This document shows, piece after piece, positions 7,679 through 25,260 of a stretch of DNA of 64,000 bases. The notes under the pieces are model-generated. The model worked only from the letters and a program-made list of their open reading frames with translations. It ran no database searches and had not been told where the DNA came from. The position numbers were made by a program, and so were the translations under genes. Source of the DNA: Candidatus Kapaibacterium sp. (GTDB taxonomy: Bacteria; Bacteroidota; Ignavibacteria; Kapaibacteriales; WFXC01); NCBI GenBank assembly GCA_015490805.1, contig WFXC01000001.1:1-64000 (forward strand), given 5' to 3'. The first letter of the stretch is position 1. Every line of letters begins with the position of its first letter.

Positions 7679-8733
7679 CCCAATTGTGTCACAGTGGCGG
7701 CTGTGGCTGCAAAATCGCGCCCGGGTTACTCCAGGAGATTCTGTCAAAGATCTCCCTGCCGGCGCAGCACCACTACCAGCAATTAGTGGTTGGCAATGCG
7801 CTATCAGATGATGCAGCCGTCATCGATCTCAACAGTGATCACTATTCCCTGCTGACGACCGATTTTTTTCTCCCCATTGTTGATGATCCAGAGGATTTTG
7901 GCAAAATCGCAGCAGCAAATGCGCTGAGTGACATCTATGCAATGGGTGGCACGCCGGTTGCCGCCTTAGCGCTGGTCGGTTGGCCCCTAAACCATCCAGC
8001 CCTCCAGCTTTCCAGTGAAGAACATGCTGCCATCGTCGCTGCTATCCTTCGAGGAGCGCAGGAAATCTGCCACCGGGCGCACATCCCCATTGCCGGTGGA
8101 CACAGCATCGACAACGCCGAGCCGCTGTTTGGACTGGTCGCTCTGGGAACAGTCCCGAAATCTCACCTTCGCACCAACGCCGGTGCTCAACCGGGTGATC
8201 TGTTCTTTCTCACCAAACCCTTAGGAGCTGGCATCTACGGTGCAGCGATCAAAAAAGGAACGCTCTCAGAAGAAGACTACCAGCAATTTCTGGAAACGAC
8301 CACCACCCTCAACGCGGTCGGCAGCGCTTTAGCACAACTTCCTGCCGTCCACGCGCTGACGGATGTCACCGGCTTCGGTCTCCTCGGTCACCTGCTGGAA
8401 CTCTGCACCGCCAGCGGTGTAGCTGCCGAACTCCTCTTCTCCAACATCCCCACCCTGCCGAATCTTTCCCACTACATCGCTACCTCCGGTGTGCCGGGCG
8501 GAACAAAACGGAACTGGCAAAGCTACGGGCACCACATCTCGCCACTTTCCGAGGAACAGCGCTTTCTCCTCTGCGATCCCCAGACCAGCGGTGGTCTCCT
8601 CATCGCCGCCGACCCAGCCGCAACGTCAGAGGTTATCGACATCCTGCACGCTCACCAGATCCCCTTCACAACCCCCATCGGCAAGCTCCACCCACCTGAT
8701 GCCTTCCCCCACCGCATCACCGTGCGACCGTGA
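7627..8733 (+). CDS. selD: Selenide, water dikinase (selenophosphate synthetase)
   Basis: This 368-residue protein makes selenophosphate from selenide and ATP. It has the N-terminal active segment LTQLCHSGGCGCKIAPG with Cys (not selenocysteine) and the catalytic Lys, the ATP-binding run SDDAAVIDL, DIYAMGGTPVAALALVG and AGGHSIDNAEPLFGL. The C-terminal half shows LTDVTGFGLLGHL and DPQTSGGLL. The ATG at 7627 has AGGAA 9 bases upstream; a second ATG at 7651 is possible. It overlaps mnmH by 52 bases, so both genes form a selenouridine unit. No selA, selB or selC gene is seen in the window. Confidence 0.95.
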   Translation: MAKSLRTQMADTPTVRLTQLCHSGGCGCKIAPGLLQEILSKISLPAQHHYQQLVVGNALSDDAAVIDLNSDHYSLLTTDFFLPIVDDPEDFGKIAAANALSDIYAMGGTPVAALALVGWPLNHPALQLSSEEHAAIVAAILRGAQEICHRAHIPIAGGHSIDNAEPLFGLVALGTVPKSHLRTNAGAQPGDLFFLTKPLGAGIYGAAIKKGTLSEEDYQQFLETTTTLNAVGSALAQLPAVHALTDVTGFGLLGHLLELCTASGVAAELLFSNIPTLPNLSHYIATSGVPGGTKRNWQSYGHHISPLSEEQRFLLCDPQTSGGLLIAADPAATSEVIDILHAHQIPFTTPIGKLHPPDAFPHRITVRP

Positions 8734-9410
8734 CACCTTCTTCTCTTTTTCGCCCCAAGGATTGCTCTACCATGCAGAATATAAACGCATCCTGAAACCT
8801 GTTGATAGCTTCCGCATTAAAGGTATCGAATAGTGGCATCAACTCAGTCCGCAGGAGACGAATACCTAAGAGTGTACGCTTCTGTGAAACATACATTGAA
8901 TCTGTAGAAAGCGGTTTTCCTACGCCTATTCCATATCCGGCTTTAGAAAATCTTTTTGCTATGGATAGTAGCCACAGAATAGATAGTCACGTGCTTCTCT
9001 ACAAAACAGTCGTATACTCGAGTATACGCTTCCCGGTAAGGTCGAGCCCTTAGTTGGACTCTCTCTACTTCTCCTAAAGGAGAAGGATACCATAGTAAAA
9101 TTTCTGGGAGACTCTAAGCGCCATCGAAAAACTTCAGTTGGCACAAATATCTCTTTTTCAACAAGAAGAAAGTCAGGCAAAAAACTTCCCGTAGCAGTTT
9201 CATTTACTTGGTATGTAGCTTACTTCCTCTTCAACAACCATCGATGCTACTCAATGGTATGTGCAAACGCATCCGATAACCAAATGGCATTTTCATCTCC
9301 TTGATGAACCTCACACCCAGTAAACAAGCAAGTAAACATATTTGGAGACTATAAACCCACGCAACCAATTGAACCTTAGCCAAGGAATCCACACTACACC
9401 ACCTTCTCCC
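8734..9410. other. Gene-free stretch with an 18-bp perfect palindrome
   Basis: I see no convincing gene here. The only clear structure is CGTATACTCGAGTATACG at 9011-9028, a perfect palindrome with a 6-base GTATAC stem, like an A+T-rich variant of the TTCA-loop module in the palindrome arrays. A neighbouring sequence (GTACGCTTCTGTGAAACATAC near 8865) may be a decayed relative. This begins the accessory region that reaches to tRNA-Asn. Confidence 0.5.
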
Positions 9411-11540
9411 TCACCTTAGCAATACCATCTTTTTTACCGCATAATACTTACCAGCCCATATAGCACAGTAATACACCCCCGGAACCACCTTCCGTCCGTT
9501 GTCATCGGTTGCATCCCACAACACTCTATGAACTCCTCTACCTCTGTGCCCATTGAACAAGGTTTTTACTTTTCGGCCCAGACCGTCATAAATCACGATT
9601 TCTACATTCTCAGGTGTGGGTATCACGTAGGTAATTACCGTGGCTGATCTGAAAGGATTAGGATAGTTCTGCTTCAAGTAAAAATCTCTTATCTCTACTG
9701 GTATCCTTACACCTCTCTGATTATAAACAGCCACACCACCTGATAAACCTTTGGTTCCAAACCACTTATTACCGTTATTATCGACAGTGACACAAGTAAT
9801 GCAATTACTGGGTAATCCAGAATTAGCCACATCATAAAAAACCCAATTGCTACCGTCAAACTTTGCCACTCCACCACCATCGTTACACAATAAGTCTGAG
9901 TTTGAATCTCCTGTTCCGATCCACACATCATTTCCAGTGTCAATAGCAATGGACGTAACATAATCACTTGGCAATCCGGAATTGGACTTGGTATACACAA
10001 CCCAACTACTACCGTCGAATCTTGCAAGCCCACGGTTCGTCCCGATCCATACATTGCCACGACCATCTATAGCGATGGCAGTGACAAACTCGCTCGGCAA
10101 TTCGGATTTATAAATAACCCAATTGCTACCGTCGAATCTTGCAAGCCCACGGTTCGTCCCGATCCATACATTGCCACGACCATCTATAGCGATAGCAGTG
10201 ACAAACTCACTCGGCAATTCGGATTTATAAATAACCCAATTGCTACCGTCGAATCTTGCAAGCCCACGGTTCGTCCCGATCCATACATTGCCACGATCAT
10301 CTATAGCGATGGCAGTGACAAACTCGCTCGGCAATTCGGATTTATAAATAACCCAATTGCTACCGTCGAACTTCGCTAGCCCACCAAACTCCGCCCCAAT
10401 CCATATATTGTTGTCGCCGTCAACTGCAATGGACGTAACATAATCACCTGGCAATCCGGAATTGGAGCTGGTATACACAACCCAATTGCTACCGTCGAAC
10501 TTCGCTAGCCCACCAAACTCCGCCCCGACCCATACATTGCTCCTACCGTCAACGGCGATAGACGTAATACGGTTAGAGAGCAGGCCAGAATTGGACGTAT
10601 TATAAACGACCCAATCACTACCATCAAATTTCACCAATCCAAACCCTGTCCCAATCCACACTTTACCACTACCATCAACAGCAACAGCGATAATGACATC
10701 GGTTGGCAATTCAGAATTGGACATGTTATACACAACCCACCTGCTACCGTCAAACTTCGCCAACCCACGATCCGTTCCAACCCATACATTGTCACGATCA
10801 TCTATGGCAATGGCAGTGACAAACTCGCTTGGCAATTCAGACCTGTAAACAACCCAATTGCTACCGTCAAACTTCGCTAGCCCACCAAACTGCGCCCCGA
10901 CCCATACATTGCCACCGTTATCAAGCACAATAGCCAAAATAACCAATAGTTCTAACCTATCTACATTATACACAACCCAATTGCTACCGTCAAACTTCGC
11001 TAGTCTACCAAACGTTCCGACCCATATATTGTCGTCGCCGTCAACTGCAATGGATGTAACATAATCACTCGGCAATCCAGAATTGGACCTGGTATACACA
11101 ACCCAATTGCTACCGTCAAACTTCGCTAGCCCATCCCGTGTTCCAACCCATACACTACCACGACCATCTATAGCAATGGCAGTGACAAACTCACTCGGCA
11201 ATTCAGATCTGTAAATAACCCAATTGTTACCGTCGAACTTCGCTAGCCCACGATCCGTCCCAATCCATACACTGCCGCCATCATCAACTGCAATGGACGT
11301 AATCCTGTTAGAAGGCAATCTGGAATTGGCTTTATTATAGAATGTTGCCGTACCTGAAACTTTGTCCAGCTTTACCAAACCACCTGCTGTTCCTACCCAC
11401 AGATCACTCCCATCCTCTGCGATAGCACTAATGACATCCCCATTTGTGTAATTCACCCACTCTGGATCCTCGCAAACCCCACTATAAACGATCAGGGTCA
11501 GAACAATAAAAGCAAGATTGAAATATTTTTGATTTATCAT
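9411..11540 (-). CDS. T9SS-exported Reg_prop-type beta-propeller protein
   Basis: This roughly 709-residue protein has a signal peptide (to about GVCEDPEW). It continues with about 14 blades of the two-component-regulator-propeller pattern (VTSIAVDGxxNVWIGTxxGLAKFDGSNWVVY), each 39 or 42 residues. It closes with a complete T9SS type A domain (LKQNYPNPFRSATVITYVI ... GVYYCAIWAGKYYAVKKMVLLR). No kinase or DNA-binding domain follows, so it is probably a surface or secreted protein. Three consecutive blades are nearly identical at DNA level. The ATG at 11540 is preferred over an upstream GTG (11549) because GGAG and AGGGG precede it. A paralogue lies at 41180-43126. Confidence 0.88.
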   Translation of the reverse strand: MINQKYFNLAFIVLTLIVYSGVCEDPEWVNYTNGDVISAIAEDGSDLWVGTAGGLVKLDKVSGTATFYNKANSRLPSNRITSIAVDDGGSVWIGTDRGLAKFDGNNWVIYRSELPSEFVTAIAIDGRGSVWVGTRDGLAKFDGSNWVVYTRSNSGLPSDYVTSIAVDGDDNIWVGTFGRLAKFDGSNWVVYNVDRLELLVILAIVLDNGGNVWVGAQFGGLAKFDGSNWVVYRSELPSEFVTAIAIDDRDNVWVGTDRGLAKFDGSRWVVYNMSNSELPTDVIIAVAVDGSGKVWIGTGFGLVKFDGSDWVVYNTSNSGLLSNRITSIAVDGRSNVWVGAEFGGLAKFDGSNWVVYTSSNSGLPGDYVTSIAVDGDNNIWIGAEFGGLAKFDGSNWVIYKSELPSEFVTAIAIDDRGNVWIGTNRGLARFDGSNWVIYKSELPSEFVTAIAIDGRGNVWIGTNRGLARFDGSNWVIYKSELPSEFVTAIAIDGRGNVWIGTNRGLARFDGSSWVVYTKSNSGLPSDYVTSIAIDTGNDVWIGTGDSNSDLLCNDGGGVAKFDGSNWVFYDVANSGLPSNCITCVTVDNNGNKWFGTKGLSGGVAVYNQRGVRIPVEIRDFYLKQNYPNPFRSATVITYVIPTPENVEIVIYDGLGRKVKTLFNGHRGRGVHRVLWDATDDNGRKVVPGVYYCAIWAGKYYAVKKMVLLR
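10021..10371 (-). repeat. Three near-identical 117-bp tandem blades
   Basis: Units begin at 10021, 10138 and 10255 (CTTGCAAGCCCACGG in each), an exact 117-bp period equal to 39 codons. The first two differ at only a couple of positions, for example GATGGCAGTG versus GATAGCAGTG. Identity falls away outside this stretch. This points to recent in-frame amplification or gene conversion within the propeller gene. Confidence 0.85.
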
Positions 11541-11668
11541 TTGCTCCACCCCTAAATTAGTTCACCTTACCTTCCACAACTTTTTCGTAGCCTGTGAGTT
11601 TTTATCGACATCTGCAAATGCAAATAGACAAAACTACATAAAATGGTCTACCAAATCCTGTCGCTGAA

Positions 11669-14600
11669 CTATTTTTCTGGTTCGACTGCCATCCCTACTG
11701 CACATTCGATCTGTCCCTCATCAGATTCGATAACGATAAGCCTATTTGCTCCCTGCTGAACGAGTGCTACCCTAACATTCCAATCGGGTATTTCCCAGGC
11801 CTTGCTTTCACTTTCTCTACGCTGAACTTCCACAATTCTGACCTCACCCCGCATATCCAGCTCATCCACATATACCGACACACTTTCGTGTTGCTCAGGA
11901 TGTTCTATACGAAATCGTCCCCGCTGTTGCATCCAGACGATTTTAAGAGGACCAAAAACCCATTCTGTGGGCTCTGATCGTGGGGTACCGATATACACAG
12001 CAGGATATTCCGGGATTTCTTGGTCACCAAGGTCGAACTGTTCACGAATCTGGCGAGCCTCCTCGTACCATCGTTCTCCTTCCACATTTCTCTTTCCACG
12101 GGAGGGTTCCGCGCGACGCCGGTAGTATTCCGCATAGCGCTCCAGATTTTTGGCCAACCGCTCGGCGGCAAATCTTTGTATCTCTTGTGCAGACGCGCTA
12201 CTGAGGAGATCCTCATAGAACTGGAGAGCGTAGACAATCCTACCAGCACGCTCAATGGCGGCTCCCACTACCTCTGCGGGTAACTCATGCAGATCCAGAC
12301 TCCCTTCCTTTCCACCGATAAAGTGTCGATACAGAAACTCCGCAACAAGCGTCTGATAGTTGGTTGGCTCCGACGGGAGATCTTCCGAGATCGCCAATGC
12401 TTCGATACAGGCACGGAAAACAGCCTTTGTTCCTCCAGAAGCCTCCAAAATCTCCTGGACCTTGTCTAACAAATCCTGACGCAGCCTCAGTTCAGAAAAA
12501 TCAGCATTTTCAGCAGCAGCTATGACAGCATACCACTTGCGATTACGCACAAATCCACGAGTCGCAAGAACGCACACTTGCGTTATCAAATTGGTACTCC
12601 CTGCTCGAACCGCTTCATCCAGCACTTCGACAATCTTTTCCCTGTCATTCAATACATACTCCTCCAACGCTTCGACACAGGCGCGAAACACAGCCTTTAT
12701 TCCTCCAGAAGTCTCTAAAATCCCTCGGATCTTGTCTGATAAATCCTGATTCAGTTGCAATGCAGAAAAGTCAGCATTTTCAGCAGCAGCCACGGCAGCG
12801 TGCCAGTCACGAGTACGCACAAACATCCGGGTTGCAAGAATACAGACTCGCGTGATTAAGCGGCTATCTCCCGTTTCGACCGTTTTAATTAGTACTTCGG
12901 TGATCCTTTTCCTGTCAGCAGGCAAATATTCCACCATTTCTACTGCCAGCGGAACCTCGCTCTCCTGAAGTGCTGCATCTACTACAGTAGAGATAATAGG
13001 CACACCGAGCTGCGCAATATTGGAAATGTTCGCCCGGTTCTTGCGCCACTGACGCAGAACTTCTCTATATTCCTTAAGCCTAGCGAACCAAATGATGTTC
13101 TCTGGAAAGGGTGTGATTTGAGCCTTGGCGTGCAAGTATTCCTCTCTCTTGGTAGACTTTACTTCCTCCCATAGTTCCACAGCTTCAGTTAATTCCCCTG
13201 CTCTGTATGCAACCATAGCAAGCTGACCAGGGTCCACGTGTATCCCTATCCTGCGGAAGCGCTTGAACATCTCCCAAAGGGCTATCCACGGAAGTTCGCC
13301 TTTTGCTTCTTGGAGTCTTTCCGCTACCCTTTGAATCACCAGATGCCATACAGCATCTCGACGAATCCGATGCAACCAAGCATCGTCTTCAGCAGCTTCT
13401 ATTAACCTGCTTAGGAACACTTGAGGTAAGGCTGATTTCTGAACCATAAAGTCTGATGCACGGGATTCAAGCCGCGAACTCAGAGCTGGATTCGCCGCTG
13501 TCAAATCGATTACCTGCAGCCACGCTTGTCCCTTCCAATAACAACGAAATGCTTCCTCATACAGACCCAACTCACGATACTTATCCCCTGCCCGGATATA
13601 GTCCCCTTCAAGCTCTCGAGCCATTGCAAGACATCTACCAGCAGCCTCCTCATCTCCTGCGCTCCGGTACGCAAGAGCTGCCTGCCGCAGCAAGTAAGAA
13701 TCGCGCTTTGCCCGCCCTTCGCGTTCGTAATCTTCCCCTTGCCGTCGAGGATCGACCTCCTTTCCACCCCACCATTGCTCAGCACCCGGAACGGGATGTG
13801 CGATGTAACCTCGCCACTTATCCGGACCACCTGCCTTGTCCATTAGCCGATTTACTACTTCTATATCAGTTGCAAACTGCCAGAACTCTCTCAACGCGCG
13901 GTCTGAATCTACGATAACCAGTCGCCCCTTTGCCCGACTTGCTGCTACATAAAGCCTATTGAAAAAATACTCATAAGGAAGTTTCTCCTCCGGTTTCTCC
14001 AAACTAATTTCTCCCTTTAGAAGTTTCACAAAGTCCCTGGGAACTGTCTCACCAAATCGATACAGTACAACTGCTGAAAACTCCAAGCCTTTTGCACGCA
14101 TAGGACTCAGTACATTTCGGTAAACACCCTCCGCTTTCTCCTGAGTAGTCCTGAGAACCTCATCACGATCCACGTAATCATTTTCTTCTCCTGACTCACA
14201 GTTGACTAATTTCACCAAATCCGGCCGCTGACGAAGCCCTTTTTTCGCCACCTCACTATCCACTTCGAACCAAACTGTTTGTATCGGCTCATCAACCCAC
14301 CAGGGTTCTTGGGGACGGATACCTGTAACATCAAGGAGCGCCGCGCGGGCTAATTGAATTAAATTGCAGAATCTCACGATGCCGGGGTTCGAGCGATAAT
14401 TGAAGCTAAGTTCTTTATACGTTATACCAACATGCGCTCTCCGATGGGGATCGAGAACAGCGCGAAATCGTTCGTAAAAATCAGCTTGCACTGCGTCCCA
14501 TCGGAAACCCGTCGGGTTGATCGTCTGTAGGGGATCGCCAGCAAAAACGATAGGAACTCTCTTCAACTCTTCCGGTTGCAGCAAACGCCGTCCAAACAAT

Positions 14601-16228
14601 GAAAATTGAAAAATAACATCCAGCTCAAGAGGCGTAAAGTCTTGAGCCTCATCACAAAATATCGCTGCACAATCAACGTGGCGAGCACAATCTAACTCTA
14701 ACACCCAGGCTGCCAGATCCTGATCATCCCAAAAACCTTTTTCATTACACAGGTTCTTGTACCAACCGCACCACACTTGTTCATAAATTTGCTCATAAGT
14801 TGTGTAGGAAACCGACCGGCGTCGCCGGGGAAGTGCGCTGAATTCCTCTGGAGTTAACTCATCGTCAAGACTAGAGCGAATTCCCTTTATGTAAGACCGA
14901 ATGACATGCCAAGCTATGTCTGGGGATATGCGCCGTGCTTCCAGTCGCCTTGCAAACTCCTTTGCCCACAAGCGTCGGAACTGAGCATAGTCTACATATC
15001 GATCGCCCGGCAACTGCTCCTGCACAGTTGGGGGCAAGAGTGAATAAAGAAAATCGTGAAAAACTTTAAAGGATCGCTCAAGCGCCTCATCGACCTCTGC
15101 CGGACTGGGTGCTCCTTCCAGCAAACGCCTATGATGTGCAGTGAGCAGACTCTTCACGATTTTACGAGCATGTTCCAACAAATCTCGACTGGATGTCATG
15201 TAAAGCAACTGATGGTCTACCCCACGGCGCAGCGCAAATTCCAGATAGTCAGCAGCAAGATATTGCAACATCGTTGACTTGCCACTACCTGCTCGACCAT
15301 TGATAAAAAGCGGATAGCCAAGTTGATCCATAGATCCCATCCGGCGGATCGAATCGAGCAGTTCCGCTTCTTCAGGTGACAACGCAAGGTTGGCCTCTTC
15401 ATCCTTCTGGATCGCAAGCCAGGCTTCCTGATCCAGTACCATCAAGAAGGGATAAGAACGCGCGGCTACTCTGTCAAGCTCAGGCTGCCCATTCCCTATC
15501 CGTTTGAGCCGCCCAAGATGCTGCTCTAATATGGCATCAATGTTATCGGTGCGACGCAATGGTTCAATCAAAAGAAGACGATTGAGATCTCGCCGATATA
15601 GATACACTACCCCAAGGCGATTGTCCTCTCCCCAGAGAACTCGAACATCTGTGTTGCTCTCCGCTATCCAGAGCCTGTCAAGTTCCATTCTCTCAAGTAT
15701 CTGGTGATACAAAACAAGAAATTCCCGATTTTGAGGTGCCCGCATCTTCTTCACCCAGGCTTCCGTCTCCAGTATAATCAAGTCCTCATCCGACTCCTCC
15801 GATGAAAATACCTCATACAACCATGCCCGTTCCGATTCACTTGGTTCGGGTGGCGAAGGTAAAGGAGCGCTCTGGGTCAGGTCATAATGGATCTGTAAAA
15901 GTTGCTCGCTGCTATAAGGCTGGAAACGAGCTACCACAGCCTCAGGATCGTGCTCCCAATTTGCAAGGAAATACTTATACTCTCTGCTACTACGTGGGAA
16001 TACGCGGAGAAAGAGAATCAATTCGTCGCCCCTGACAGGTGCACGGTATCCGATTAGGCGCAAATTTCTCCCCAAATTTCTCTTTAGAAACGTTGGTGGG
16101 AAGAACTCAAATCCTGTAAGATTCTGCGTTTTCTGAACTCGATCTCTGATCTTGGACAAAAGTTCCAACCTGCCGTGCTTTCGAGCATCTGACTTACAGT
16201 CTTCAGTCATAACAACATAAAGAGCCAT
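11669..16228 (-). CDS. Large UvrD-type SF1 helicase with N-terminal RelE-like and C-terminal helical-repeat regions
   Basis: This 1519-residue protein starts at an ATG preceded by GAGGAG. Residues 1-115 are a small alpha/beta domain (MALYVVMTEDCKSDARK ... YRAPVRGDELILFLRVF) reminiscent of RelE-like folds fused to other UvrD proteins. The SF1A core shows Walker A GRAGSGKST (311-319), Walker B DEAQD (526-530), motif III GDPLQTINPTGF (564-575), motif IV FNYRSNPG (about 609-616), motif V MRAKGLEFSAVVL and motif VI RLYVAASRAKGRL (about 765). All are intact, so ATPase/translocase activity is likely. The last 700 residues are TPR-like helices (AALAYRSAGDEEAAGRCLAMARELEGDYIRAGDKYRELGLYEEA) including a 91-residue duplication. 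It stands alone in an accessory region. A role in phage defence is inference. Confidence 0.85.
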   Translation of the reverse strand: MALYVVMTEDCKSDARKHGRLELLSKIRDRVQKTQNLTGFEFFPPTFLKRNLGRNLRLIGYRAPVRGDELILFLRVFPRSSREYKYFLANWEHDPEAVVARFQPYSSEQLLQIHYDLTQSAPLPSPPEPSESERAWLYEVFSSEESDEDLIILETEAWVKKMRAPQNREFLVLYHQILERMELDRLWIAESNTDVRVLWGEDNRLGVVYLYRRDLNRLLLIEPLRRTDNIDAILEQHLGRLKRIGNGQPELDRVAARSYPFLMVLDQEAWLAIQKDEEANLALSPEEAELLDSIRRMGSMDQLGYPLFINGRAGSGKSTMLQYLAADYLEFALRRGVDHQLLYMTSSRDLLEHARKIVKSLLTAHHRRLLEGAPSPAEVDEALERSFKVFHDFLYSLLPPTVQEQLPGDRYVDYAQFRRLWAKEFARRLEARRISPDIAWHVIRSYIKGIRSSLDDELTPEEFSALPRRRRSVSYTTYEQIYEQVWCGWYKNLCNEKGFWDDQDLAAWVLELDCARHVDCAAIFCDEAQDFTPLELDVIFQFSLFGRRLLQPEELKRVPIVFAGDPLQTINPTGFRWDAVQADFYERFRAVLDPHRRAHVGITYKELSFNYRSNPGIVRFCNLIQLARAALLDVTGIRPQEPWWVDEPIQTVWFEVDSEVAKKGLRQRPDLVKLVNCESGEENDYVDRDEVLRTTQEKAEGVYRNVLSPMRAKGLEFSAVVLYRFGETVPRDFVKLLKGEISLEKPEEKLPYEYFFNRLYVAASRAKGRLVIVDSDRALREFWQFATDIEVVNRLMDKAGGPDKWRGYIAHPVPGAEQWWGGKEVDPRRQGEDYEREGRAKRDSYLLRQAALAYRSAGDEEAAGRCLAMARELEGDYIRAGDKYRELGLYEEAFRCYWKGQAWLQVIDLTAANPALSSRLESRASDFMVQKSALPQVFLSRLIEAAEDDAWLHRIRRDAVWHLVIQRVAERLQEAKGELPWIALWEMFKRFRRIGIHVDPGQLAMVAYRAGELTEAVELWEEVKSTKREEYLHAKAQITPFPENIIWFARLKEYREVLRQWRKNRANISNIAQLGVPIISTVVDAALQESEVPLAVEMVEYLPADRKRITEVLIKTVETGDSRLITRVCILATRMFVRTRDWHAAVAAAENADFSALQLNQDLSDKIRGILETSGGIKAVFRACVEALEEYVLNDREKIVEVLDEAVRAGSTNLITQVCVLATRGFVRNRKWYAVIAAAENADFSELRLRQDLLDKVQEILEASGGTKAVFRACIEALAISEDLPSEPTNYQTLVAEFLYRHFIGGKEGSLDLHELPAEVVGAAIERAGRIVYALQFYEDLLSSASAQEIQRFAAERLAKNLERYAEYYRRRAEPSRGKRNVEGERWYEEARQIREQFDLGDQEIPEYPAVYIGTPRSEPTEWVFGPLKIVWMQQRGRFRIEHPEQHESVSVYVDELDMRGEVRIVEVQRRESESKAWEIPDWNVRVALVQQGANRLIVIESDEGQIECAVGMAVEPEK
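12395..12940 (-). repeat. 273-bp internal duplication in the helicase C-terminal region
   Basis: Two tandem copies (about 12395-12667 and 12668-12940) encode 91-residue units containing VLATRxFVRxRxWxAxxAAAENADFSxLxLxQDLxDKxxxILExSGGxKAVFRACxEAL. They are alike at DNA as well as protein level (both contain TCAGCATTTTCAGCAGCAGC). The duplication is therefore relatively young and extends the helical solenoid by one or more repeats. Confidence 0.8.
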
Positions 16229-17304
16229 ATCATCTCCTCTATGTTCAGAATTACATTCCAAAGGGAGCTTAACCGCCTAAACCAGCCGGATAAAACTGAA
16301 ACGTTTTGTTCCCAACTCTGTGTCCTTGTTACTTTGGCACGTAATCCTATGTTGCTCAGCAGGCCCATAGATGGATAAGGAAAAACCTCTTACGAAACCT
16401 GGCATGTTGCTTCCAGACTAACTGATATCAAAGAAATTGTATTCCCAAAAGCTGATGCAGAATTCATGACAGAACCCAAAGTTTTTCCTTGGATATGAGG
16501 AAACGCAAAATCAAGAGCACAATCCCAACTCGTTGCTTGAAGACCTTCCGACCTCACAGGTTCCAACTGACTGTCGTCAGATAAAACGTCTCTATACTTA
16601 TTCCTCCAGATTATCCTCAAACGCCATCAATGTCGACGCTGATCAACCATCGTTCTACCTGAGACACTTGACATACACCACTTCTGGATCACCTTTACCG
16701 AGATGACGAATCCCAGCACATAGTACGTAGCCTAACCTTGCCAGGTATGATTGCGTTGGCAAGTTTGATGAGCCGGTTGATGTGAACCTCTTAGGGACCT
16801 GGCAAATGGACTCCAAATATTGCATTAACATCATCCCTAATTTTCACCTCACGATTGCGAAGCTACTTTGTGGATGCATCCGAATGCTACATTAGAATCA
16901 TCTCCAATCCTTGCGGCCAACGTTCAAGGGAAAGAGAAAGCAGAAAAACAAATCTCTATTCGTAGAATATACACCTCACACAACATCACCAACGATTTGC
17001 TGGCTCAATAGCAAAGCAACAGCCCACTTCCACAGAGCAATCAACAAAACGCAACGTTGCTCATTTCGTTGAACAACGTAGTCAAACTCGCAGATGGCAT
17101 CAACATCATTGGTATGTGGCGAGGCGAATCAGAAGCGTTTTCTTCACGATCCTGAATTATTACTCCTCCTGCCGACCACCTCTCTATCCATCTGCTGACA
17201 GCAAGATCGTGCACAACCGCTGGCGGTACACCAACCCAACTTTTTGTTCTCCTTACACCCACGGGCGCTATCAGTCAGCGTTGTAGAAAGCAGCTACCAC
17301 CACC
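16229..17304. other. Gene-free stretch
   Basis: More than a kilobase upstream of the helicase contains no reading frame with protein-like composition on either strand, no RNA gene that I can fold by eye, and no clear repeat. Short frames here have erratic composition. It may be decayed coding sequence or a regulatory region. Confidence 0.4.
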
Positions 17305-17938
17305 TCACTTCTCAGGATGCGAATGCTCCATCATCGGATGATGTCGGTGATGATGGTATCCTCGCAGTTCGTTGTACTGCTGAATCTGCTGTGGGGTCAG
17401 AAGCTGTGTCATCGCCAGATGATACTTCAGGTGCACAAACCGGAGCTTCCCATACAGCTCTGCACTTTCAGCAACCTTCCTACAGCTCTGCACTTTCAGC
17501 AACCTTCCGCCGCAGAAAAGACTCGGTGATCGTTCGGCGTGCAAATGCACGATCAATCTCCTTTTCAACCTCCAGAAGCTGCTTCCCCAGCGGAATTGCC
17601 TCAGCCCGCATCTTTTCATACAGCTCCCGCGTCTTCCGATACTGCTCCGGCGTGAGTGCCAGCTTCCCCGCCTCATAAAGATCCAGCACATGCCGTGGTC
17701 CCGGATACCCATTCAACTCCGCTGCCTTCGCCATTCCTCCAAACGGCATACCGGACCCCGCCAGCAGCCCCCGCACATCCGCCTCCGATAGCGCCTTTAT
17801 CTCCCGCTCCTCCTGCCCCGCATACGGTGATCGCTCTTCAGCCTGCTGCGCCCGCGCACTACTAACGGTCAGCACCACAACCAGCACCCCCAAAGCACCT
17901 ATCCATCGCCTCGCGGTCAAATACCAATGCCGCTGCAT
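17305..17938 (-). pseudogene. Spy/CpxP-like periplasmic protein split by a 28-bp tandem duplication
   Basis: The N-terminal part has a signal peptide (MQRHWYLTARRWIGALGVLVVVLTVSSARAQQ) and a helical LTPEQYRKTRELYEKMRAEAIPLGKQLLEVEKEIDRAF stretch typical of Spy/CpxP/heavy-metal-sensor proteins. It reads to ...KVAESAEL and stops at TAG (17482-17480). The continuation ...ELYGKLRFVHLKYHLAMTQLLTPQQIQQYNELRGYHHHRHHP lies in another frame, ending at 17305. A perfect 28-bp direct duplication (17453-17480 and 17481-17508) creates the stop; removing one copy joins the two frames precisely. The C-terminus is His-rich, fitting metal binding. A GTG at 17962 is an alternative start. It may be dead or phase-variable. 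Confidence 0.85.
17453..17508. repeat. Perfect 28-bp tandem duplication
   Basis: Two adjacent identical copies begin TACAGCTCTGCACTTTCAGC. A 28-base unit is not a multiple of three, so each gain or loss changes frame in the gene that contains it. The in-frame stop lies at the copy junction. Confidence 0.95.
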
Positions 17939-17962
17939 CAGCCATCTCCATATTTGTTGCAC

Positions 17963-18831
17963 ATTCTTTCCCCGCGTTCTACTCTTGCATTCCTGCTATG
18001 TCGAAAACTCACGATCCCCACTCTGCAAAGCCTCATCTCGACATTCAAAAACAACTCCCTTGCCGAAAGGGTCGCCCTACTTCTCACGCTCTTTGCTATT
18101 TGCTCAGGAAACGACTATCTGTCCCGAATAATGCCAAAGCTACCAAAAGAACTTTTCCATCTTGCAGCATCCCGATATTGTTCAAAGACAGCTACTGCCG
18201 AACAAAGACAAACGTTCCGTATGATCCAAATGCGCATGGGTCACAACAATATAATCCACAAGTGCACCACTTATTGGAAGCTCCGCATTGAGCCTACAGG
18301 CTCATGTGAGTCGTTCCCTACAATTTCCCTCTCTTTCTGGATAAGAATTTCCACAATCAATAAGTCCCTACTTTAAGCATATGAAGCGATCCGGACACCC
18401 GTCCAGCCGCACCATACGAGACCACGGAGACTGCCGGAGGGAGGTACGTCATACTCGCAGGATGACAACACCACTGTTATAGTAACTACACAAACCAATC
18501 TTCGAGCACTAAACAGCATTTCGCAATCTCACATCAGCACCCTCACAATTACAGGAACAAATTTACAAAGGCAACCCGAAAACTCAAAGAAACGGTACCA
18601 TTCGGCTCCGCTTTGCTTTTCTTTCTCATACGTTTATGGAAAGAACATTTGAGGAAGAATTCTTCACAAGCCCTCTGTCCTATTTTCGTTTCTACGGAAG
18701 TTGAGCAATTGCGATACACGAAGTATTGGATCTTTCAAAAACGTCAGCACTATAGAAGTTTGTATCCTTCTTAACAGGAACCAAAGTTGTGAAATTGAAA
18801 GTTCCTTTGTGAGGAACAAGGAGTTGAACCA
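17963..18831. other. Gene-free stretch
   Basis: No convincing gene is present. Around 18400-18460 one frame reads GRYVILAG followed by a stop, vaguely like the end of a T9SS sorting domain, but nothing upstream supports a gene. The last 60 bases hold the leader of the metallophosphatase gene with AAGGAG 8-12 bases before its ATG. Confidence 0.4.
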
Positions 18832-20730
18832 ATGCAAAAGAGCGCTGGATTAATGAAAAAGAGCCATTGGGTTCTCCTCTATCTCATCAGCCTTTATTCT
18901 GTTTTCTCACAGGTTTTGATAAATGCAGGCGCAGAATGGAAATACCTCGACGATGGGAGCGATCAAGGAGCTGCCTGGCGCACTCTGAACTATGACGACA
19001 GCCACTGGTCATCAGGGCACGCTCAACTCGGCTACGGAGACGGAGATGAAGCAACGATCATCTCTTATGGTAGCTCGCCGGACAACAAACATATCTGTTA
19101 TTATTTCCGCAAGATTATCAACGTAACGAACCCATCCGCTGCCAGCGGACTGAAGATTTCGTTGCTAAGAGACGATGGCGCCGTAGTCTATATCAACGGC
19201 GTTGAAGTAGTCAGATCGAATATGCCGGATGGGCCTATACATTACAACACGCGGGCAGCGTCAACAGTTGCTGGTACCGATGAGGACATTTTCTTTGAAT
19301 ATAATGTTCCTTCATCGTATTTGCAAGCCGGGCTAAATGTCATAGCTGTGGAGGTTCATCAACGGAGGCCGACCAGTTCAGATGTCAGCTTTGACCTGAA
19401 GTTGGAATTTGCTCCGCTGGAATACTTCAAAAAATTGCCCTACCTGCTCTATACTGGCAAAAATGATGAGATGCTCATTATATGGCAACTCAACAGCACC
19501 CAGAATTGCGTTCTGGAATACGGAACCGATACGACCTATTCCCTGGGAAGGATTATTACGACGGAATACGGAAATGATCACCAGCATAAAGTTACCCTAA
19601 CTGGTTTGACACCCGGACAACAGTACTATTACCGTGTGATTGTCAATGGTACTTCCGAGAAAAAAGGGAGTTTCCGAGCCGGATTACCAACAAACGCAAC
19701 GGATGTAACCTTCTTCGCTTACGGAGATTCCCGTTCATATCCCGATATCCACAATGCAGTTGCTGAAAGCATTAGGTTAGAAATCGAACAAAATCCTTCA
19801 GTCCAAACATTCATAATACACACTGGTGATCTCGTTACCGATGGCGATATGGAAAGCATGTGGCAAAGCGAACTTTTCAATCCCCAATTCACGAACATCA
19901 TCTACTTACTGGCTCACCTTCCCTATATGGCTGCAATAGGAAACCACGAAGGCACCGGAGTACTTTTCGCCAGATATTTTCCATATCCAATGTTCAGAAA
20001 CAACCGCTACTACTATTCCTTCGATTATGGTCCAGTGCACGTGACGATCATTGATCAGGAAACATCCTATGCACAGGGAAGCACCCAGTACAACTGGATT
20101 GTCAATGACCTGGCAACAACAAATAAACCCTGGAAAATTGCTGTTTTCCACAAACCAGGCTGGTCAGCCGGGGCACATTCTAACAACATTACCGTACAGA
20201 ACTCGCTTCAGCCATTATTCGAGCGGTACGGCGTTCAACTTACGCTCACCGGTCACAATCATTACTACGCTCGCGCGGTCGTCAACGGTGTTCATCACGT
20301 CACCACCGGCGGCGGCGGATCACCACTCTATACGCCCGATCCTTCCTATCCACACATTGTCAAAGTAGATAGGTCGTACCATTACTGCAAAATCGAAATT
20401 AAAGGCGATACATTACGACTGACCGCTATTCGACGCAACGGTACGGTGATAGAAAGCTTCACCATCGTAAACTCGCCACCTACTTTTGTTCGCGATGATA
20501 GTACGTTAAGCACCCAGTGGAATATCGCTTCTTCCGATGCAAGGCTTGTAATAGCGACAAAATCAGAAATACCGGGAAACATTTCGGTATACGATAGCAT
20601 GGGGAGAAAAATTCTTGAAAAACACATCTTCAAAAGTTGTTCTATCGAACTGGAACACTCAGGCATTTACTTTATCCGATACACTGTCGGCAATAAGCGG
20701 GATATTAAAAAAGTTGTTTTCCTGAAATAA
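18832..20730 (+). CDS. T9SS-exported purple-acid-phosphatase-like metallophosphatase
   Basis: This 632-residue protein has a signal peptide (about residues 1-27, ending VFSQ). An N-terminal beta-sandwich follows (EWKYLDDGSDQGAAWRTLNYDDSHWSSGHAQLGYGD, a carbohydrate-binding-like pattern), then a fibronectin-III-like PAP N domain (VTLTGLTPGQQYYYRVIVNG). The calcineurin-like phosphoesterase motifs come in order: FAYGDSRSY, IHTGDLVTDGD, AAIGNHEG, AVFHKPGWS and LTGHNHYYAR. The end (GNISVYDSMGRKILEKHIF ... GIYFIRYTVGNKRDIKKVVFLK) is a T9SS type A sorting domain. It is probably a secreted or surface phosphomonoesterase or diesterase. A CRISPR relic begins directly after its stop. Confidence 0.9.
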   Translation: MQKSAGLMKKSHWVLLYLISLYSVFSQVLINAGAEWKYLDDGSDQGAAWRTLNYDDSHWSSGHAQLGYGDGDEATIISYGSSPDNKHICYYFRKIINVTNPSAASGLKISLLRDDGAVVYINGVEVVRSNMPDGPIHYNTRAASTVAGTDEDIFFEYNVPSSYLQAGLNVIAVEVHQRRPTSSDVSFDLKLEFAPLEYFKKLPYLLYTGKNDEMLIIWQLNSTQNCVLEYGTDTTYSLGRIITTEYGNDHQHKVTLTGLTPGQQYYYRVIVNGTSEKKGSFRAGLPTNATDVTFFAYGDSRSYPDIHNAVAESIRLEIEQNPSVQTFIIHTGDLVTDGDMESMWQSELFNPQFTNIIYLLAHLPYMAAIGNHEGTGVLFARYFPYPMFRNNRYYYSFDYGPVHVTIIDQETSYAQGSTQYNWIVNDLATTNKPWKIAVFHKPGWSAGAHSNNITVQNSLQPLFERYGVQLTLTGHNHYYARAVVNGVHHVTTGGGGSPLYTPDPSYPHIVKVDRSYHYCKIEIKGDTLRLTAIRRNGTVIESFTIVNSPPTFVRDDSTLSTQWNIASSDARLVIATKSEIPGNISVYDSMGRKILEKHIFKSCSIELEHSGIYFIRYTVGNKRDIKKVVFLK

Positions 20731-20743
20731 CCGTGCCACAATC

Positions 20744-20911
20744 CATCTCAGAATTCCAAAACAAGATCGAGAAGCTGGGGATTCAATTCCGACACGGTGC
20801 GATCGAAATTCTTTAGCGCTGGGGAGAGCTGACTACGGACGGCGAGTTTCAATTCCGACACGGTGCGATCAAAACGATTTCAGAACTCCAAAATAAGATC
20901 GAGAAGAAGTT
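20744..20911 (+). CRISPR. Relic CRISPR array: two 30-bp repeats, spacers of 36 bp
   Basis: Repeat 2 (20846-20875) begins GTTTCAATTCCGACACGG and ends CGATCAAAAC, the layout of type I-B/III repeats. Repeat 1 (20780-20809) differs at three positions (2, 26 and 30). The spacer between them is 36 bp (20810-20845). Outside, the 36 bp before repeat 1 (20744-20779) and the 36 bp after repeat 2 (20876-20911) are homologous to each other in exact register: 28 of 36 identical, 27 of 30 in the core. No third repeat or cas gene is found. Both homologous spacers can be read as ISE(F/L)QNKIEK, so a coding protospacer is likely. The array is orphaned and probably inactive. Confidence 0.72.
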
Positions 20912-21488
20912 GAGTGCATAGTATTATTCGAACGAGGCTTGGTTTCTTCATCGCCCTACAAGCTGCAGCTTCTATCAACACAGTGCCCCCTGATGCTCCC
21001 CTGTAGCTAATTGTTGATGTATGCTCTCACAGCCAAATTCCTTTGCTTCACCAATCTTCTCAAACTCAGTATCATCAACAAAACCATCAGTCTTCTTTGG
21101 TTTGAGTCATCCAACTATTGCCTACATTATCTGCTCCAGACATCATATCCATAGCAAAGCAAAATAATCTTTTTTTTCAGTGTATCCCAATCCTGCATTA
21201 GCAAGACAACTGAACAATCAAAGTCAGAACAAAGATTGAACTTATAAAACTATATCTAAGTTATTGAGAACATTATGATCATTTCGACCTTTCTGTCTTC
21301 CTGCATCTCTGTGCATTTATGTCAAACAAACATTCATCTATCTCCAATCCATCCTGAATCACCACCCGGACGGAGAAAGCAAGTATTCAGAAACCAAAAG
21401 ACCAGTAAAGAGATAATAAACAATAAAAAACTTGATATCCTAACCATTTCAAAAGCAGCACAATAGCTGCAAGTGTAACTGCTCAGCC
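20912..21488. other. Gene-free stretch
   Basis: A+T-rich DNA after the CRISPR relic with no protein-like frame, no further repeat copies and no recognisable RNA gene. Confidence 0.4.
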
Positions 21489-21758
21489 TTAATAATCAAC
21501 AAAAAGATTCAAGACCATGGCTATATCTTGAGTTATCTCGATCTCTTTGAGCATATATTTCTTCAACTCTTCTTTGGTATACCTCCATAGTTTCCCACTT
21601 CCTCTAACACCCGTTGACCTGAATCTCACACGACCTGTTCGCACTTCCAATTTTTCCAATATGCTAACAGACCGCACATACTCTCTTTGTGTCTTCCTTA
21701 TTCTTTCATCCTTTATCCTGTGACAAAGCCGATCAAGAGAACTTTTGCCGGGAAACAT
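21489..21758 (-). CDS. Small hypothetical basic protein, possibly a gene remnant
   Basis: This reads as 89 residues from an ATG at 21758 (a TTG at 21767 would add three). It is rich in Lys/Arg, with a stretch VSILEKLEVRTGRVRFRSTGVRGSGKLWRYTKEELKKYMLKEI that could be the recognition helix and wing of a winged-helix domain. AGG lies about 9 bases upstream. I recognise no family. Flanked by long gene-free DNA, it could equally be the surviving end of a decayed gene. Confidence 0.35.
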   Translation of the reverse strand: MFPGKSSLDRLCHRIKDERIRKTQREYVRSVSILEKLEVRTGRVRFRSTGVRGSGKLWRYTKEELKKYMLKEIEITQDIAMVLNLFVDY

Positions 21759-21767
21759 AGATGCCAA

Positions 21768-22324
21768 CCTGAGCCGTCATCTTTATTGTCTGAGCTCTTC
21801 TATCCCAGAAACTGTTGCCTAAACCTTGGTTCAGTACCACCTTTCAGTCACCGTATAGCAATCCTATTTTTGTAAAGCTTAGGCGATTTTTCACCTACTT
21901 TTACTGTGCAAACGGTTATTCTTCCGGTTTCTCAACACTGGCTATCTCTGTAACAGCATGACTTCTGGGAATTCTCTCCTCGTGCCCCAAGGTATTCTTC
22001 TTAATACTTTCCTATCCTCACAATAACTCCCATTCTCTGGAAAGCCCCCTTAGTTTACCAAGGGGTGGAATTGTCCGATTCCACGGAACTGACTACTTTT
22101 ATACACTAATGAGTAGATTGATAACAAAACCGAAAAAGTCTTTCAATGGACTCCTTCCTACGAGAGCATTAAAAACTTATTTATCAGCCTCTCTTCTATA
22201 GATTTCCGAAAAGTGTTTTGCCCAGCATCCATCGGATATCCGAGGTCCTGGAAGACAATATCTGAACAGAGTATCTCCCAACCATGCGCACCCTTGTCAG
22301 GTAGAAACTATCATCATATGTTAA
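21768..22324. other. Gene-free stretch
   Basis: A+T-rich, with no protein-like frame and no clear repeat. It lies downstream of the restriction endonuclease gene. Confidence 0.4.
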
Positions 22325-23347
22325 CTAAAACTTATATTGAAAAACTATATGCTCCCCGTTTCTTTTGTGTCGGATAGTCCATATCCTTATTTCAGGAACT
22401 TTTTGCGATATTATCTTGGTAAGCTTTTCCCCGTAGTTTGATGTTCCGATAATTAAATTTATGCTACGCTCTGAAATTTCTGGGTAAAAACTACTGTGGG
22501 GATTCCCCTCGGGGTGCACTTCAGCCATGATTCTTAGTCGTGGTCGCACTGACGCTTTTTCTATAACTTGTGATGCTGCTATTATTGATTGGTCGGTAAT
22601 ATACGAGAGGGCTTCTTCGATCTGATTGAGAGTATCAGAGGGTATTTTGATTTCTTTCTTCTCCAAATGGGTACGCAAAATCTTCAAAAACATCTGATAG
22701 ATAAGATGGTCTTTGGGAAGGGTTTCAAAAAACGAACCATCTACAAGGGAGATCTTTACCTTTTCATCTTTACCTGCGTGCGTTCTTACGAGATAAAAAC
22801 ATCTTCTTTCGAAAGTGCGATAGCTTCTCTCTGAAGACAGATCACCATCTATAATTGATGCGATTCTTGACACAAGGTTCTTGCCATTAATTACGTCTAT
22901 TTCTTCAAGAGTTTTGTATTTTGTAGGAAGAGTAGAATTAAAGGAAGCAATACTGCTTCCTTTTGAATCTTTTAACTCCAATAGACTACCGCAGATCAAT
23001 TTACCGGCATGTTTTCTCACCTTAAATAAGAAATCAGGAAACTGCTCTGATTTCGAATACAGAAGTTTCTTACTTACCTTGATCTCGTCTTTAATCCATT
23101 TTACAAATTGTTCTTCATTTTCAAACCGATTTTTGACAATATTCCATAAATCGTAACCGTATTTCTCTTTTGCATCTCTACGATTATCAATGTAAGCGAA
23201 ACTATCCCTACCGACTTTCAGGCATATCTCTTCCAATGGCGAATGGGGAGTAATTTTCCTTGCTTTCAAAGCATTTATTATTCTAATATAAAAATCCACA
23301 GCATCAGTAAATTCATACATTTCAAAACAACTTTCTTTGCTCAACAT
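22325..23347 (-). CDS. Type II restriction endonuclease, PD-(D/E)XK type
   Basis: This 340-residue protein follows a DNA methyltransferase gene and overlaps it by 26 bases. A plausible PD-(D/E)XK centre is SEQFPDFLFKVRKHAGKLICGSLLELKDSKG, with Asp in PDF, then Glu and Lys in ELK. This is supported mainly by context and the motif; the recognition sequence cannot be predicted. Codon use and base composition are clearly more A+T-rich than the housekeeping genes, in line with transfer. An internal ATG at 23320 is an alternative start; neither start has a strong ribosome site, so coupling to the methyltransferase is likely. Confidence 0.75.
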   Translation of the reverse strand: MLSKESCFEMYEFTDAVDFYIRIINALKARKITPHSPLEEICLKVGRDSFAYIDNRRDAKEKYGYDLWNIVKNRFENEEQFVKWIKDEIKVSKKLLYSKSEQFPDFLFKVRKHAGKLICGSLLELKDSKGSSIASFNSTLPTKYKTLEEIDVINGKNLVSRIASIIDGDLSSERSYRTFERRCFYLVRTHAGKDEKVKISLVDGSFFETLPKDHLIYQMFLKILRTHLEKKEIKIPSDTLNQIEEALSYITDQSIIAASQVIEKASVRPRLRIMAEVHPEGNPHSSFYPEISERSINLIIGTSNYGEKLTKIISQKVPEIRIWTIRHKRNGEHIVFQYKF

Positions 23348-24188
23348 CGGTCGGAGTCTTTTTCACTGGCCATATCTCCTCTATTCTTCGCGTATGTCTG
23401 TAATAATTATAGTATCTCAGAATATTATCTGACGGTCTTAGATGAGTTAAACGCTTTTTAATAAGCTCAGCATATGTGGGGTCTATTTCTACACCTATCG
23501 AATTTCGCTTTAGCTGATAAGCGACCACTAATGTGGTTCCTGATCCAGCAAATGGATCCAATATAATATCCCCAGGAGAAGTAGAACTTAAGATAATTCT
23601 CAAAAGCAAAGCTACAGGAGATTGCTGTATATGAACTCTGTTTCCCTTACTATCCCTTATTGCCTCATTGCCGGCAAAATATCCGGATGTCAACTCCCTA
23701 ATATCATCCCATACATCTGTAACATAGATCCCATTGCGCCTTGCGTATTTGTACTCTGGAGGTGTAGGCAAATCTATACGTAATTTGTTAAATACTCGCG
23801 GCTTCCTACCTTTAGTAGCAAACACAATAATTTGGTACTGTTTAGAATACCTGATTTCAGAAGGAATTGCTGATGTTTTCTTTTTCCATATAATTAGGTT
23901 CTGAAATACCCATCCTGTTTCTCTGAGTGTCCTTAATACGTGTTCTGCGTTTTTTTCTCTGTGCATAAAGTACACAGCGCCACCTTTCACAGTAATTCTA
24001 TAAACTCTCGATAAGATACCTTTTAACCACTTCCAGTATTTTTCCTCAGGTTGATTATCATCAAAGAATCTATAGTCCTTCCCCTGCCTAAAAGGTGGAT
24101 CTATAAAAGTGAGATGAACATTGCCTTCTGAATAATTGTCAAGCCATTTCACGCAATCTTCATTTACTATTTTATACCACACTTTCAT
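23322..24188 (-). CDS. Site-specific DNA methyltransferase (N6-adenine/N4-cytosine, beta class)
   Basis: This 288-residue methyltransferase has motif IV FIDPPFRQGKDY near residue 29 and motif I DPFAGSGTTLVVAYQLKRNSIGVEID near residue 215. That order (IV before I) marks the beta class. The DPPF form favours N6-adenine methylation. Between them is a target-recognition stretch including IWKKKTSAIPSEIRYSKQYQIIVFATKG. It is the protective half of a restriction-modification pair with the nuclease immediately downstream on the same strand. It is A+T-rich, suggesting acquisition by transfer. Confidence 0.92.
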   Translation of the reverse strand: MKVWYKIVNEDCVKWLDNYSEGNVHLTFIDPPFRQGKDYRFFDDNQPEEKYWKWLKGILSRVYRITVKGGAVYFMHREKNAEHVLRTLRETGWVFQNLIIWKKKTSAIPSEIRYSKQYQIIVFATKGRKPRVFNKLRIDLPTPPEYKYARRNGIYVTDVWDDIRELTSGYFAGNEAIRDSKGNRVHIQQSPVALLLRIILSSTSPGDIILDPFAGSGTTLVVAYQLKRNSIGVEIDPTYAELIKKRLTHLRPSDNILRYYNYYRHTRRIEEIWPVKKTPTDVEQRKLF

Positions 24189-25260
24189 TTTTGACTCCTG
24201 TCGTTTCTAACCCACCTTGTATCTAACTTGTTCAGATTTAATCTATCCGGATATAGCATCTATTTCGTTTCTGGAATACAACACTTGCTGACCGTTTATA
24301 TCCCCTTCTCACCCTTTCCGAATTCCCTTTTGTATCTACCTTTATCCTACATTGAAAGGGCATCAAGAACTTTTCACAAAATCAAAAATTCTTTGTGCTC
24401 ATATGTGCAAAATCTCCGTCGTCTTTGAGATCCGGCATTCCAAAAGCTACTGAACAACCCCTTAAAACAACCTGTTTTCAGATAAGCGTGCAACAAAGCT
24501 ATCCCACTGGTACTTTATCGGATTTTTTCCTCTTTCAACCTTGCATATTCAAGCAAGTGCTTTTTCCCATTATTTAAGCAATCTATCAATTGCCTTTTAG
24601 CCTGCCAGAACTTCAAAACCGCCCGACCCTACGAAAACCGTCGGTAAAGCGAATATAGTAAATTGCTCACACATATCAAAAAGTTGCAGTCAAAAATTCC
24701 TTCTCCTGTGAGAGTCCGTACCCGGCGAATACATCACTGTAATATATACCGTTTCCAGTTTGCAATCTGCACACCACAACAAAATGCTGGTAAACAGACA
24801 CTCTGGTACCTTGGAAATGGGCGTTTTCGGCAAAGGCGCAACTGGTACAATAGTCTGTTCATAGCCTACTTTTGTTGCCATCGGCACAATTTCCGATGCT
24901 TCGGCTTGGTAATCCGCCCCAATGGCAACACTCAGGACGAGGACTTACGTAAATACCTTCAACTGCTCACCGGCTCCCCACGAAACCGTGAGAAAACGTA
25001 AGCGGGACGTGTCTTAATAATATACACAGATGAGATGCGACACTACACAGATCGATGAAAGGAACTAACAGCTTTCTACGACGTTGATGTGACCAGGTAA
25101 TGTTGACATTTACACGAATCAATGAAGACGAAAACAACCGAGAAGCTTCTCCTTCGTATTCTGTCCACTTCAGAGTTTGCACCTCCGACTTTTTCTTTAC
25201 TGACACACAATCTCAGTTACATAACCGGATACGATGGCGGCTGCAAGACTCCCCCTTCCC
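24189..25260. other. Gene-free stretch
   Basis: About 1.07 kb with only short, compositionally odd frames. I see no RNA gene, repeat or mobile-element end. It contains the promoter side of the methyltransferase gene. Confidence 0.4.

Follow-up and report, generated by a model that had tools for sequence, protein, structure and literature searches.

A displaced type I-B CRISPR array fragment

The window, the 64,000-nt stretch of DNA analysed here, very probably carries in its assembled contig an ectopic CRISPR array fragment that belongs to the type I-B system of this genus. Two 30-bp repeats, R1 (20780–20809, GATTCAATTCCGACACGGTGCGATCGAAAT) and R2 (20846–20875, GTTTCAATTCCGACACGGTGCGATCAAAAC), enclose the 36-bp spacer S2 (20810–20845) and are flanked by two further 36-mers, S1 on the trailer side (20744–20779) and S3 on the leader side (20876–20911), all assigned to the minus strand. 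S1 and S3 are identical at 28 of 36 positions with no offset; these coordinates and counts hold as first given in the preliminary description. R2, which reads GTTTTGATCGCACCGTGTCGGAATTGAAAC in RNA orientation, agrees at every position (30/30) with the repeat consensus of the arrays in this genome, and R1 differs from R2, and hence from that consensus, at positions 2, 26 and 30 (27/30). Spacer length and register fit a type I-B array, S2 being 36 nt long and the lag of 132 nt between the outer spacers corresponding to two 66-bp units.

The outer flanks of S1 and S3 are bare, so that not every spacer has a repeat on both sides. No significant repeat remnant was detected to the left of S1 (shuffle p = 0.13) and none was found to the right of S3 (shuffle p = 0.3); the AATC at 20740–20743, directly left of S1, may be the 4-nt end of a repeat that has otherwise disappeared. 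A search beside the fragment showed that it lacks the leader conserved in the genus, and the locus contains no cas genes, the fragment lying on contig C24 and the cas genes on C8 and C17. With both the leader and the outer repeats missing, the locus is not a complete, adaptation-competent CRISPR array, and leader-borne spacer uptake is impossible.

The resident type I-B system

The source genome (2.67 Mb, 48 contigs) contains the R2 repeat, with G or C as its first base, 32 times in its own arrays, separated by spacers of 35–37 nt. The resident array is split across two contigs: 15 repeats occupy the final 1 kb of C46, which breaks off inside a further repeat, and 17 repeats occupy the opening 1.1 kb of C8, so that the array comprises 32 or more repeats. 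The adaptation genes cas4, cas1 and cas2 adjoin the C8 part, and the effector genes cas8b, cas7b, cas5 (cas5b) and cas3 are present on C17, which together identify the system as type I-B. The locus had been described as a CRISPR relic, and it is one: the identical repeat builds true arrays beside cas4–cas1–cas2 in the same genome, and the intact arrays that were to be looked for elsewhere in the genome are those of C46 and C8.

The same repeat occurs in two other Candidatus Kapaibacterium genomes of the genus (G001 and G002) and, in 292 perfect copies, in contig JALWWX010000028.1. A conserved leader, AGGTTGCAAATATAGCG, follows the last repeat in the source genome and in G001, and a variant, AGGTTACAAATATAGCG, follows the last repeat of the 292-repeat contig. 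Because the leader lies to the right of the last repeat in the plus orientation, the RNA strand is the minus strand. In RNA orientation the repeat ends in the ATTGAAAC handle usual for type I-B systems.

Two spacers of the resident array were observed in passing. The same spacer occurs twice in C46 (L043, 135–170 and 794–829) as exact copies ten units apart. A 36-nt spacer in C8 (L041, 204–239, TTCAAAGCCGACACCGTGCAATCAAAACGAATTTGG) resembles the repeat of the array in which it lies, with 24/28 identical positions and a local score of 40 compared to a maximum of 28 in 60 shuffles of all spacers. This spacer had no match among the viral contigs; its source may have been a phage or plasmid bearing a repeat mimic (a solitary repeat or Racr-like element), or a foreign array, and it is a more interesting lead than the window fragment.

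The fragment lies in accessory DNA

G001 lacks the block that holds the fragment (18186–25254) and has about 121 bp at this position, and in G002 the whole of 8732–25258 is missing, with about 140 bp instead, so that 7–16.5 kb around the fragment is lacking in the two same-genus genomes. Because neither genome has the surrounding DNA, the fragment is located in accessory DNA and does not represent a second, ancestral array site in the genus. Within the block it lies between a T9SS-type metallophosphatase gene (18832–20730, plus strand) and a type II methyltransferase (23322–24188, minus strand) with a neighbouring ORF (22325–23347, minus strand), close to a fall in GC content from ~0.46 to 0.39. 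The ORF may encode the nuclease of the methyltransferase (pair at 22325–24188). No phage genes were found among the neighbours scanned, namely the metallophosphatase, the methyltransferase, T9SS-type proteins and a helicase-like protein, and a search of IMG/VR contigs for the array repeat found no match. None of the relatives has a copy of the fragment by which the order of events might be traced.

The wider region 8732–25254 varies between the same flanks, measuring ~140 bp in G002, a couple of kb in G001 and 16.5 kb in the source genome. It includes the 1530-aa helicase-like protein (11669–16261), which has a weak match to GajB/UvrD.

Relationship between the outer spacers

For any one pair, a 28/36 match has a binomial probability of ~2e-10; the highest count for 36-mers at a lag of 132 nt elsewhere in the window is 26 matches. 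The preliminary description held that recurrence of the flanking 36-mers outside a CRISPR context, or a repeat resembling no array, would speak against genuine spacers; the repeat matches arrays, and the 27-nt core of the outer 36-mers occurs at these two places only in 123 genomes of the order. The homology is best drawn as a 35-nt block (20740–20774 versus 20872–20906, 30/35 identical) that sits 4 nt to the left of the outer 36-mers and takes in the AAAC end of R2, which is AATC in the left copy. In the left copy this block ends 5 nt before R1 and thus 5 nt short of the PAM-side edge of the spacer, and in the right copy homology stops at 20906. Over their final 5 nt S1 and S3 are mismatched at 4/5 positions compared to 4/31 elsewhere (Fisher p = 0.005, post hoc), which suggests that S3 was cut at about 20906.

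Taken as a whole, we consider an account based on duplication and drift reasonably probable, though by no means assured. A piece of ~167 bp, consisting of the end of a repeat, S1, R1, S2, R2 and most of S3, would have ended up in the chromosomal accessory block, with no leader, cas genes or outer repeats accompanying it. S1 and S3 would be copies of one spacer, produced in the source array when recombination between repeats duplicated it (S-R-S2-R-S), and would then have drifted at about the rate of the flanking repeats. We observe the identity of the repeat, the lack of a leader and of outer repeats, the accessory position and the I-B effector and adaptation genes; the duplication, the mode of transfer and the inactivity of the fragment we infer. 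S1 and S3 diverge at 4/31 positions and R1 and R2 at 3/30 (Fisher p = 1), so that decay after duplication needs no further assumption. Exact spacer copies exist in the arrays of the genus, with seven pairs among 334 spacers, some of them 66, 132 and 197 nt apart, and one pair in the genome's own C46 array. The exact pair at L061 47 and 179 is 132 nt apart and has the same S-R-S'-R-S layout as the window fragment. Against duplication followed by decay stand the uneven decay of the repeats (three changes in R1, none in R2) and the frequency of diverged in-register spacers in the 292-repeat array. In addition, three of the four core differences between S1 and S3 fall in one codon phase, as they would after capture from the coding DNA of related phages, but such clustering is not significant (~0.33 for any phase).

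The 292-repeat array is unusually long, spanning about 19 kb that are cut at the contig start and followed by the leader. The 26.5-kb contig (JALWWX010000028.1, L061–L063) is filed under an Aquificales MAG; the DNA downstream of the array is mostly 84–98% identical to Kapaibacterium, and by this similarity the contig is probably misbinned. The array contains several clusters of diverged spacers that differ at 1–6 positions and line up without any offset once their leader-side ends are matched, and in diverged pairs of unequal length the shared end is this leader-side (PAM-side) end. Diverged same-strand pairs with zero offset are at least 1.5 kb apart, whereas close pairs are exact copies. As all 292 repeats are perfect, drift is unlikely for the diverged pairs, which point to repeated sampling of related targets. 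A search for a PAM, in which spacers from part of this array were compared with phages, yielded no match. Two neighbouring spacers (L061 1369/1435) have diverged in-register relatives at L062 7786/7851 with their order reversed; this suggests that one pair of sites was sampled more than once in related targets.

These pairs also lend weight to a second explanation of the same array fragment, namely that S1 and S3 were captured separately at one PAM-anchored site of two related phages. We regard this as possible but distinctly less probable than duplication. Zero-offset pairs with 1–6 differences that share the PAM-side end do exist in the 292-repeat array, and the three core changes between S1 and S3 are C/T transitions, two of them silent in one frame. 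That substitution pattern, noted in the preliminary description, is visible as described but makes a weak argument, as the chance that three of four changes share a codon phase is ~1/3. The proposed PAM anchoring gains no support: the match between S1 and S3 fails at the very end where anchoring is expected, with 4/5 PAM-side nucleotides mismatched, unlike in the anchored pairs, and such a mismatch is not predicted by PAM-anchored sampling unless S3 is cut there. Moreover, the divergence of S1 and S3 is no greater than that of the adjacent repeats, the diverged pairs of the 292-repeat array lie far apart rather than two units apart, and protospacer searches in viral contigs, phages, plasmids and genomes of the order were all empty. 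Of the two origins originally offered for the outer spacers, both kinds occur in related arrays, but the protospacers in two phages were not found. Exact register does favour real spacers, as had been argued; it provides no choice between duplication and repeated sampling. Both processes are ordinary, and duplication with decay fits somewhat better. The initial observation is thus confirmed and its interpretation partly supported, and matching outer spacers are ordinary for CRISPR.

Targets and coding potential of the outer 36-mers

A search of IMG/VR with a degenerate peptide pattern for S1/S3 and with the exact core of S2 revealed no protospacer, nor did blastn against phages and plasmids or a 3-mismatch pattern in the 123 genomes of the order. 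Protospacers sharing a PAM had been anticipated in a gene encoding ISE(F/L)QNKIEK; searches of viral contigs, phages and plasmids and of order-level genomes found none, and the only homologues of the translated frame were translated CRISPR repeats, which leaves the peptide unsupported as a gene product. Two candidates were set aside. A relaxed ELQNKIEK pattern occurred in 71 viral contigs, with a best DNA identity of 24/31, and these were taken as chance peptides; a 78% match in G010 lies within a methyltransferase-like gene without array context and was treated as chance.

It is very improbable that the outer 36-mers are instead a target-site duplication or the parts of a gene (ISE(F/L)QNKIEK) into which a repeat-spacer-repeat unit was inserted. 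Such an insertion would account for the absence of outer repeats and for the open frame that extends across R2 and S3 as far as the stop at 20919–20921. We rejected target-site duplication because a coincidence would then be needed for the duplicated target to supply the terminal 4 nt of the perfect R2. The lag of exactly two array units, the restriction of the 27-nt pattern to these two sites in 123 genomes and the matching of the translated frame to translated CRISPR repeats only also argue against insertion, as does the fact that such peptides in viral contigs show DNA-level similarity not beyond 24/31.

Possible function and relation to known systems

The array fragment is most likely inert or nearly so. 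Read-through on the minus strand could at most give one crRNA, that of S2, usable by the resident Cascade; this crRNA would be possible because R2 is intact and R1 keeps its fold, the same fold being predicted for both repeats. A guide from S1 would carry the changed handle ATTGAATC, and S3 would have no handle.

Least probable of all is a functional ectopic mini-array of the CreTA/CreA or regulatory type, in which S2 or S1 would guide Cascade to a nearby promoter: two ectopic repeats, one of them degenerate, resemble the CreTA layout (PMC9458426), the host has a type I-B Cascade and R1 and R2 keep the same predicted fold, but cas genes are not nearby, the best seed runs within 18.8–24.3 kb are 8 nt for S2 (19/36 overall) and 6 nt for S1 with the PAM not known, the S1 guide is mismatched to S3 at 4 of the first 5 nt, the promoter signal is not above that of shuffles (sigma-70 model only) and the other two genomes of the genus lack the fragment. 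We give an equally small chance to the fragment having been kept and transcribed as an ectopic guide, whose S2 crRNA would act with the resident Cascade in regulation or between elements; this reading would include S1 as a seed-mismatched guide against the fragment's own upstream S3 sequence.

Like the resident C46/C8 type I-B array, the fragment has the identical repeat and a 36-nt spacer, but that array has a leader, adjoining cas4-1-2 and 32 or more repeats. Orphan, cas-distant mini-arrays (reviewed in PMC8616872) are likewise short, lack cas genes and leader, use a resident repeat and are in principle usable by Cas proteins in trans; unlike them, the window fragment is cut beyond its last repeats at both ends and has no terminal repeats. 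CreTA (PMC9458426) shares with it two ectopic repeats, one degenerate, and a type I-B host, whereas the window fragment is away from the cas genes, has one perfect repeat and showed no local partial target; the position of CreTA at the cas operon holds in haloarchaea and is not claimed to be universal. Virus-borne mini-CRISPR arrays and solitary repeat units (PMC6858448, PMC10651486) also consist of one or two host-matching repeats, but here the block is without recognised viral genes and the repeat is not in IMG/VR contigs.

Taken alone, the window locus is of little consequence. It shows that accessory DNA can come to hold pieces of a type I-B array with neither leader nor cas genes. The 292-repeat array used for comparison shows that both duplication and repeated sampling regularly give rise to related spacers in register, register alone proving neither.
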